From Natrialba taiwanensis DSM 12281 (GTDB taxonomy: Archaea > Halobacteriota > Halobacteria > Halobacteriales > Natrialbaceae): a stretch of DNA of 64,000 nt. Within the stretch, counting starts at the first letter, position 1; every line of letters begins with the position of its first letter. A model generated the notes under the pieces. That model worked only from the letters and a program-made list of their open reading frames with translations, was not told the DNA's origin and searched no databases. Positions 34,730-39,782 of this stretch are shown here, piece after piece. Position numbers and translations under genes: made by a program. The stretch is from assembly GCF_000337595.1 (NCBI RefSeq), contig NZ_AOIL01000050.1, positions 73,588 to 137,587 of the forward strand, read 5' to 3'.

Positions 34730-35065
34730 TTAGCCAGTCTCGGCGGTAGATTCCGTTTCAGTGTCGGAACCGGTTTCGGTTCCGCTCTCGTTGTCGGTAC
34801 CAGTGTCGTTCTCGTTTCCGTTTCCGTTGTCACTCTCGTTCCCGCTCTCTGTCTCGGAGTCGTTAGTCACGTCAGTACCGGCTTCTTCATCACCTTCTTC
34901 TTCTTCTTCGATATCCTGCCCGTTGCCGGTCTCTTCTTCAGACTCAGGCGTCCCGTTTTCGTCGTCTTCCCCAGGGCCGCCACAGCCCGCAACGAGTACC
35001 GTTGCAACCGCCGTTCCTGTCAGCCCGAGCAATCGCCGCCGAGATGGACCAGTCGAACGAGCCAT
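34730..35065 (-). CDS. Short Tat lipoprotein with acidic low-complexity tail
   Basis: A 111-residue protein. A twin-arginine signal (PSRRRLLGLTGTAVATVL) ends at a lipobox (VAGC). Everything after the Cys is low-complexity: Glu/Asp/Asn/Gly/Thr/Ser only (QDIEEEEEGDEEAG, NDNGNGNENDTG-like). No folded domain is predicted, so it would be a flexible, highly negative surface stalk. Its DNA is a degenerate microsatellite, so length probably varies between strains. A tandem-repeat array follows its stop. Confidence 0.7.
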   Translation of the reverse strand: MARSTGPSRRRLLGLTGTAVATVLVAGCGGPGEDDENGTPESEEETGNGQDIEEEEEGDEEAGTDVTNDSETESGNESDNGNGNENDTGTDNESGTETGSDTETESTAETG

Positions 35066-35140: not shown

Positions 35141-35147
35141 TTTATAC
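35141..35147 (+). promoter_or_regulatory. TATA box of the MoaD/SAMP-like gene
   Basis: TTTATAC is centred 26 bases before the ATG at 35170, the classic spacing for a leaderless haloarchaeal transcript. Confidence 0.65.
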
Positions 35148-35169: not shown

Positions 35170-35472
35170 ATGGAACTCACGCTGCGCTTCTTCGCCACGT
35201 TCCGGGACGCCGTCGGCGAGAAAGAACGGACACACACCGTCGATGCCGACGCCACCGTCGGCGACGTTCTCGCCGACCTCGAAACGACCTACGACGGCCT
35301 CGATGGCCACCTCCTCGCCGAGGACGGTACCGCCGTTCGCCAGCAACTGAGCGTCCTCAAGAACGGCCGTGATATTACCCACATGGCCGGCCCGGATACT
35401 GAACTCGAAAACGGCGATGTCGTCTCGGTCTTCCCGCCGGTCGCCGGCGGCCGCGTCGACCACTGTCGATGA
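35170..35472 (+). CDS. MoaD/SAMP-type ubiquitin-like protein with residues after Gly-Gly
   Basis: A 100-residue beta-grasp protein: MELTLRFFATFRDAVGEKER, LSVLKNGRDITHMAG and the C-terminal DVVSVFPPVAGG. In MoaD and in SAMP modifiers the chain normally ends at Gly-Gly, which is adenylated by an E1-like enzyme for sulfur transfer or protein conjugation. Here six more residues (RVDHCR) follow Gly93-Gly94 before the stop. The protein would need trimming, or it is a non-conjugating homologue. The start is set by the TATA box 26 bases upstream. It may serve pterin synthesis for the aldehyde oxidoreductase at 40307. Confidence 0.85.
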   Translation: MELTLRFFATFRDAVGEKERTHTVDADATVGDVLADLETTYDGLDGHLLAEDGTAVRQQLSVLKNGRDITHMAGPDTELENGDVVSVFPPVAGGRVDHCR

Positions 35473-35592
35473 ACTGAATCGCGAAATCGGCTTCCGGTAG
35501 CGGATGCTGCTCGGGAACCGAGTTCTCTTTGAAGCTCTGTTTCGAGAACACTTTACGCGTCGGCCCACCGAACTACTGTGAGGAGTGATCGA

Positions 35593-36495
35593 ATGGAGTT
35601 CGACCCGGAAACTGACGAGTACGCCGACAGCGAGGCCGATGGACGACGATCCGAACGCACGAGCCGGCGGGCAGACGGTCGTGAGGACGCGGCGGCCGAC
35701 GTGACGCCGGCCACAGCCGAACCGAACACGGCATCGACCACAGCCACACCCACCGCCGAGAACGAGGCAACCGCTACTGAGATCGCAGCCGGCGCAACCG
35801 AAACGGACACCGCCGTCACGTTCGACCGAGACGGTCTTCGAGCCGGCTTTCTCAAAACGATCCCGGTTGCCCTCGGCGTTGGCGGCTACGGCATCGCGTT
35901 CGGCATCCTGGCCGACCAAGCCGGTCTGAGCGTCGCCGAGGCTGCACTCATGAGTGCCACCGTCGTCGCCGGTGCATCCCAGATCGTCGCCGTCGAACTC
36001 TGGGCCGACCCGCTCCCGATCGCCGCCGTGCTCGTCACCACGTTCGCCATCAACCTTCGGTACTCCCTGATGGGTGCCGCCCTTCAGCCGTGGTTCAAGC
36101 GCCTCTCTGCCACCAAGGTCTACGGCAGCCTCTTCGTCATGGCCGACGAGAACTGGGCGCTAACCATGCGCTCGCTGAAATCAAACACCGGCTACGGCGC
36201 GTTCCTCCTCGGCAGCGGCATCGCCGTCTGGCTCGCCTGGGTCGGCGCAACGATCGTCGGCACCGTCGCCGGCGGCGTCGTCGGCGATCCGACGACGTAC
36301 GGCTTCGACTTCATCCTCACCGCCGTCTTCCTCGCCCTCACCGCCGAACTCTGGGAGGGTCAGTCCTCACTCCTCCCCTGGACCGTCTCGCTTGCCACCG
36401 CACTCATCACCGCTGAACTCGTTCCCGGCCGCTGGTACATCCTCCTTGGCGGCCTCGCCGCCGCCACCGTCGAGGTGATTCGCCGTGGCGAGTGA
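35593..36495 (+). CDS. azlC: AzlC-family branched-chain amino acid exporter, large subunit
   Basis: AzlC forms with AzlD an inner-membrane exporter for branched-chain or related amino acids. Of about 300 residues, the first 80 are an unusual hydrophilic tail rich in Ala, Thr, Glu and Asp. The AzlC domain follows (FLKTIPVALGVGGYGIAFGI, AALMSATVVAGASQIVAVELW, TFAINLRYSLMGAAL). An in-frame GTG at 35578 has a TATA-like CTTTACG about 26 bases upstream and could be the true leaderless start. The azlD gene overlaps its end by 11 bases. Confidence 0.9.
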   Translation: MEFDPETDEYADSEADGRRSERTSRRADGREDAAADVTPATAEPNTASTTATPTAENEATATEIAAGATETDTAVTFDRDGLRAGFLKTIPVALGVGGYGIAFGILADQAGLSVAEAALMSATVVAGASQIVAVELWADPLPIAAVLVTTFAINLRYSLMGAALQPWFKRLSATKVYGSLFVMADENWALTMRSLKSNTGYGAFLLGSGIAVWLAWVGATIVGTVAGGVVGDPTTYGFDFILTAVFLALTAELWEGQSSLLPWTVSLATALITAELVPGRWYILLGGLAAATVEVIRRGE

Positions 36496-36808
36496 CGCTC
36501 TTATCCTCTCTCTCGACCCGCTCGTCGTCGCCGTCGTCCTCGCGATGGCACTCATCACGTTCCTCACGAAGGTCGGCGGCATCTGGCTCGTTCGCCGATT
36601 CGAACTGAGCGACCGTCTCGAAGCCGGCCTCACCGTGCTCCCCGGCGCGATCGTCATCGCCGTGATCGGACCTGAACTCGCAGCCGGCGGCCCGGCGGAG
36701 TGGGCTGCTGGGGGTGCCGTCTTGCTCGTCATGTGGCGAACTGAGAGCATCCTGCTCGCGCTGTGTACCGGCGTCCTCGCCGTCGTCGCGTTTCGGATGG
36801 CCTTCTGA
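36485..36808 (+). CDS. azlD: AzlD-family exporter small subunit
   Basis: A 107-residue membrane protein, GTG start, with four hydrophobic segments and the family motifs ALITFLTKVGGIWLVRRF and LTVLPGAIVIAVIGPEL. It partners AzlC and overlaps its gene by 11 bases, so the two are translationally coupled. Length is normal for the family. Confidence 0.9.
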   Translation: MASDALILSLDPLVVAVVLAMALITFLTKVGGIWLVRRFELSDRLEAGLTVLPGAIVIAVIGPELAAGGPAEWAAGGAVLLVMWRTESILLALCTGVLAVVAFRMAF

Positions 36809-39491: not shown

Positions 39492-39782
39492 ATGGAACGG
39501 CGCATCGAGCGGTCCTTTCGCGGAATTTCCGAGCGGCTCGCAGTTCGGTATCTCTCGAATCTCGGCGGTGAGCGCGTCCAGGACGGCGACGAAACGACGG
39601 TCGAAGCCGACGACTGGACGGCGACGATCACCTCGGAATCGGTCGACATCGGACCGACGCTGACACTTACCGAGGTAACGATAGTTTTCGAACGTGATGA
39701 GAACGACGACGCCGACGGGAGCACACAGCTCGACGAACTCGTCGACACCTTCGCTCAAAAGGCCATGCGTGCCGGAGGATGA
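39492..39782 (+). CDS. DUF1952-like protein ending in Gly-Gly
   Basis: A 96-residue protein with MERRIERSFRGISERLAVRY, LSNLGGERVQ, a beta-rich middle (DIGPTLTLTEVTIVFERDE), and the C-terminus TFAQKAMRAGG. The layout recalls the DUF1952 domain that in some archaea and Thermus is fused behind MoaD-type ubiquitin-like domains; that link is from memory and should be checked. The Gly-Gly end is a possible activation site. It is a leaderless gene followed seven bases later by the gene at 39789, upstream of the convergent aldehyde oxidoreductase. Confidence 0.65.
   Translation: MERRIERSFRGISERLAVRYLSNLGGERVQDGDETTVEADDWTATITSESVDIGPTLTLTEVTIVFERDENDDADGSTQLDELVDTFAQKAMRAGG

Follow-up and report, generated by a model that had tools for sequence, protein, structure and literature searches.

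Archaeal ubiquitin-like proteins that are made as precursors and processed by JAMM proteases are already known from Caldiarchaeum subterraneum, in which CsJAMM processes SAMP precursors and the related CsRpn11 cuts the precursor of CsUb (PMC6043591). Specifically, the native first residue of the CsUb tail is Cys, and its replacement by Gly leads to faster cleavage and its replacement by Glu to none (PMC6043591). Likewise already known is the linear cleavage of an artificial fusion by HvJAMM1 of Haloferax volcanii: a SAMP1-MoaE fusion is cut precisely after Gly-Gly in vitro and is also cleaved in vivo, in a manner that depends on both the Gly-Gly and jamm1 (PMC4443979). The passages of that paper that were examined make no mention of natural tailed haloarchaeal SAMPs, and the literature searched contained no description of natural tails on these proteins, an absence that is weak evidence. 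Since Gly-Gly is already the C terminus of the model SAMPs, little attention is usually paid to whether archaeal SAMPs require maturation; among the SAMPs of H. volcanii, HVO_2177 is SAMP3, whose conjugation was demonstrated after correction of its start codon (PMC4500146). What seems new here, within the literature examined, is that natural haloarchaeal SAMPs are often precursors, following the presence of JAMM1.

Within the window (the whole 64,000-nucleotide stretch of DNA analysed here), the open reading frame at 35170-35472 on the plus strand encodes a SAMP3-type MoaD/ubiquitin-like modifier of 100 amino acids, tail included. Its C terminus, ...SVFPPVAGGRVDHCR, comprises the conserved VFPPVAGG (residues 87-94; 35428-35451, with the Gly-Gly at 35446-35451) and, after it, the six residues RVDHCR (35452-35469), followed by the stop codon TGA (35470-35472). 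The ATG at 35170 fits as the start codon because a TATA box-like TTTATA (35141-35146, plus strand) lies 24 nt ahead of it, a spacing usual for leaderless haloarchaeal transcripts. The protein scores as a MoaD/ThiS-type beta-grasp protein against the SAMP1 model (94.8 bits, cut-off 60), ThiS in Pfam (63.5 bits, cut-off 22.5) and moaD_arch (69.6 bits, cut-off 49.5), and the family-model match stops at residue 94, the second Gly of the Gly-Gly, so that the original prediction of a MoaD/SAMP-like protein running six residues past its Gly-Gly is confirmed by translation and family match alike. Automatic names may mislead because the NCBIfam "SAMP1" model also catches this SAMP3: by phmmer the window protein matches SAMP3 (2M19) with an E value of 4e-29 and SAMP1 with one of about 1e-7. 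The closest solved structure is 2M19, which we take to be HVO_2177; its match to the window protein covers residues 1-94 of the latter, and its own chain stops at Gly-Gly. In the AlphaFold model (15 sequences; pLDDT 80) the core consists of strands and helices, and residues 91-100 lie below pLDDT 50. Flanking the gene are, on the minus strand at 34730-35065, a divergent gene for an acidic, low-complexity probable lipoprotein with a basic start, a lipobox-like VAGCGG and no Pfam match, and, immediately downstream on the plus strand at 35578-36808, an AzlC/AzlD branched-chain amino acid export pair.

The tail is not peculiar to the window. SAMP3 is tailed in all seven genomes of the genus that were compared, the tails being RVDHCR, CVDHRR in each of the two nearest relatives (which share the frame and stop position of the window gene), GRP, GRPQP, GRPQL and one glycine-rich stretch of 19 residues. 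Across the family, 30 of 104 SAMP3 orthologues, in 13 genera, are tailed; Gly-Gly is the C terminus of the remaining 74. Of the 104, 102 have VFPPVAGG unaltered and two carry a single I/V change, and the codons of the motif vary synonymously. The median tail is 4 residues long, whereas a median of 38 codons separates an untailed gene from the next in-frame stop. Parsimony requires at least 14 changes of tail state in the family and 24 over 173 order-wide sequences, counts that rest on the tree of a single short gene. Because most orthologues end at Gly-Gly and the motif stays all but unchanged despite its codon variation, the tails are, on this comparison, derived stop losses that have arisen many times, behind a motif still under selection; the window SAMP3, extended beyond a conserved Gly-Gly, conforms to this pattern. 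The original prediction had allowed for a recent stop-codon loss should orthologues end at Gly-Gly: the loss is indeed derived, but it is neither recent nor unique, given the tailed genus and the many origins. The alignment of haloarchaeal homologues that it proposed finds no conservation of the tail sequence, even within the genus, and we have set aside the idea that the tail is a conserved functional peptide. Nor is there support for the significance it attached to a Cys in the tail, which occupies position 5 of the tail in the window and position 1 in that of the sister species, a shift that takes one T/C change in each of two codons; Cys was discarded as a conserved feature.

Every genome of the genus has genes for two JAMM proteins. 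Our search for a JAMM/MPN protease gene able to trim the tail, also proposed with the original prediction, found JAMM1 in the window's genome on contig C55 (83497-84033), outside the window; the 179-residue protein matches the NCBIfam desampylase model NF041370 at 148.9 bits (cut-off 130) and keeps HSHPRGPPRPSETD, with HSH...S..D intact, and by its sequence it is the predicted cognate protease. The distribution of tails follows that of this gene. In the order, 222 near-complete genomes were counted: of the 178 that encode JAMM1, 108 have one or more tailed SAMPs, and of the 44 that do not, none has. These genomes are related and not independent, and tail states of SAMP1 and SAMP2 outside the fetched loci are stop flags in the search output, with ambiguous SAMP2 rows dropped. 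By genus units the counts are 36 of 50 and 0 of 18. Six families hold both JAMM1 states; in five of them tails are found on the JAMM1-positive side only, and in the sixth the near-complete genomes have no tails. For SAMP3 alone, near-complete genomes have a tail in 68 of 163 JAMM1-positive cases versus 0 of 11 JAMM1-negative ones (p=0.007). An independent-pairs test of JAMM1 against tail state on the SAMP3 tree gave 4-5 contrasts, none against expectation but too few for significance, which was not reached; three incomplete genomes, left out of the JAMM1 counts, encode a tailed SAMP3 but gave no JAMM1 match. In addition, SAMP3 itself is present in 98 of 100 near-complete JAMM1-positive genomes of the family versus 0 of 13 JAMM1-negative ones. 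Several genera of the family have lost SAMP3 and JAMM1 together and retained SAMP1 and SAMP2, and this joint loss suggests from gene content that SAMP3 is tied to JAMM1.

We rejected a restriction of tails to SAMP3. In the genomes of the family, tails are also found on 12 of 117 SAMP1 proteins, 7 of 62 of a fourth, VYGG-type paralogue and about 27 of 119 SAMP2 proteins; in all, 36 genus units have tailed SAMP genes. Within the genus, the SAMP1-type and VYGG-type paralogues end exactly at Gly-Gly, and SAMP2 does so in the window's genome and has SR added in four other species. Counting each combination of genus, paralogue and residue once among all sequenced short tails, we found A, G, S, T or C directly after Gly-Gly in 62 of 76 cases, compared with 27 of 70 one position further on (Fisher p=1e-7); over all later positions these residues make up 142 of 349. 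This bias, a tendency found in the present analysis and not a strict published requirement, has the form that a protease site would be expected to impose on sequence. The window protein departs from it, with Arg in first place (as in 7 of 86 genus-collapsed tails), and the two sister species have Cys there. A null drawn from the C termini of neighbouring genes (small residues in 94 of 166) was discarded as uninformative because the six-frame reading frames included spurious antisense families, and was replaced by two controls, the second tail position for residue bias and a Gly-Gly protein for tail rate.

The latter control, at 39492-39782 on the plus strand, is a Gly-Gly-terminal protein unrelated to SAMP3 that fits the TBP-like family arCOG06308 described in PMC2948915, of which it is a putative member. 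In all 126 distinct sequences of this protein the Gly-Gly is the very end of the chain, and tails are thus not general to Gly-Gly ends in these genomes. In other haloarchaeal families the TBP-like domain is fused downstream of SAMP3, joined to its VFPPVAGG with or without a linker (thirteen loci); the domain itself ends in ...RAGG, and the product is a naturally occurring polyprotein of two parts, each with a Gly-Gly end. At eleven loci of a single genus in another family, the LRLIKGG of SAMP2 leads into a fused AhpC/TSA peroxiredoxin-like domain (Pfam 1e-18), with Ser following the Gly-Gly in nearly all.

We consider it likely that the window gene codes for the precursor form of a SAMP3 and that JAMM1 matures it; the chain is probably synthesised long and then trimmed in the manner of eukaryotic ubiquitin. 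After loss of the original stop codon had created the tail, the JAMM/MPN+ metalloprotease JAMM1 (desampylase) would cut the peptide bond after Gly94 and release RVDHCR, and the exposed Gly-Gly carboxylate would be adenylated by the E1-like UbaA for isopeptide conjugation or sulfur transfer, with JAMM1 maturing tailed SAMPs ahead of their use by UbaA. Because JAMM1 would trim it, such a tail could be tolerated, so that its sequence and length might drift while the residue beside the cut stays mostly small. Both JAMM1 as the enzyme and its cutting of this particular tail are what we infer. It is unlikely, although not negligibly so, that some other peptidase, be it the second JAMM protein or a carboxypeptidase or protease of a general kind, does the trimming and that JAMM1 is merely correlated: a second JAMM protein is present throughout the genus, and tails that are short and predicted to be disordered could be nibbled by exopeptidases, but in near-complete genomes the tails track JAMM1, recombinant JAMM2 alone was not functional (PMC4895103), and a carboxypeptidase would explain neither the preference for small residues directly after Gly-Gly nor the tolerated fusion of whole domains.

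We give rather little credence to the proposal that the tail is never removed and that the window SAMP3 no longer conjugates and acts non-covalently, if at all. The unusual Arg at the head of the tail would fit such a protein, as would the dispensability of SAMP3 for molybdopterin synthesis in H. volcanii reported in PMC4443979; however, all tailed orthologues retain the motif, there is constraint on the residue that opens the tail, and inert tails would not predict a JAMM1-linked pattern. Of the two outcomes that the original prediction offered, trimming by a protease or no conjugation, the first fits far better than the second, because the motif is intact, the residue that follows it is under constraint, and no near-complete genome has tails without JAMM1. 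The lack of tail conservation between species might also point to an unselected stop loss that happened recently in a single genome, or to an artefact of sequencing, but this is scarcely credible, since every member of the genus is tailed, two sister species share the length and stop position (which excludes a sequencing frameshift), and tailed SAMP genes recur across genera. Returning to maturation by JAMM1, slow processing or a small unprocessed pool of the window SAMP3 is possible because its first tail residue, Arg, makes it a slightly awkward case.

The pattern seen points to widespread processing of precursors among haloarchaea, and JAMM1 would thereby gain a second role besides taking SAMPs off conjugates. 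We regard as evenly balanced the broader proposition that SAMPs of the Halobacteria are commonly precursors with JAMM1 as their required maturase, that loss of JAMM1 forces Gly-Gly ends, and that in several families the polyprotein of SAMP3 and the TBP-like domain is an archaeal analogue of ubiquitin fusions. To our knowledge, ubiquitin in eukaryotes is always made as a precursor.

It is informative to set the window SAMP3 beside the known systems. H. volcanii SAMP3 (HVO_2177, 2M19) is its orthologue by best match and has the same VFPPVAGG, but stops at Gly-Gly, whereas the window protein carries RVDHCR beyond. In Pseudomonas, the residues after the Gly-Gly of the ThiS-like QbsE are taken off by the JAMM protease QbsD; this is a bacterial siderophore pathway, and both tail and context differ from those of the window SAMP3. 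The Caldiarchaeum pairs (SAMPs with CsJAMM, CsUb with CsRpn11) resemble the present case as archaeal ubiquitin-like precursors cut by a JAMM protease after Gly-Gly, although they belong to a different phylum, the CsUb tail begins with the small residue Cys and that of the window with Arg, and cleavage was shown in vitro there and is predicted here. Finally, HvJAMM1 acting on SAMP1-MoaE shares with the proposed maturation the same enzyme family, the same class of host and a cut exactly after Gly-Gly; the fusion cut there is artificial, unlike the natural tail of the window SAMP3.
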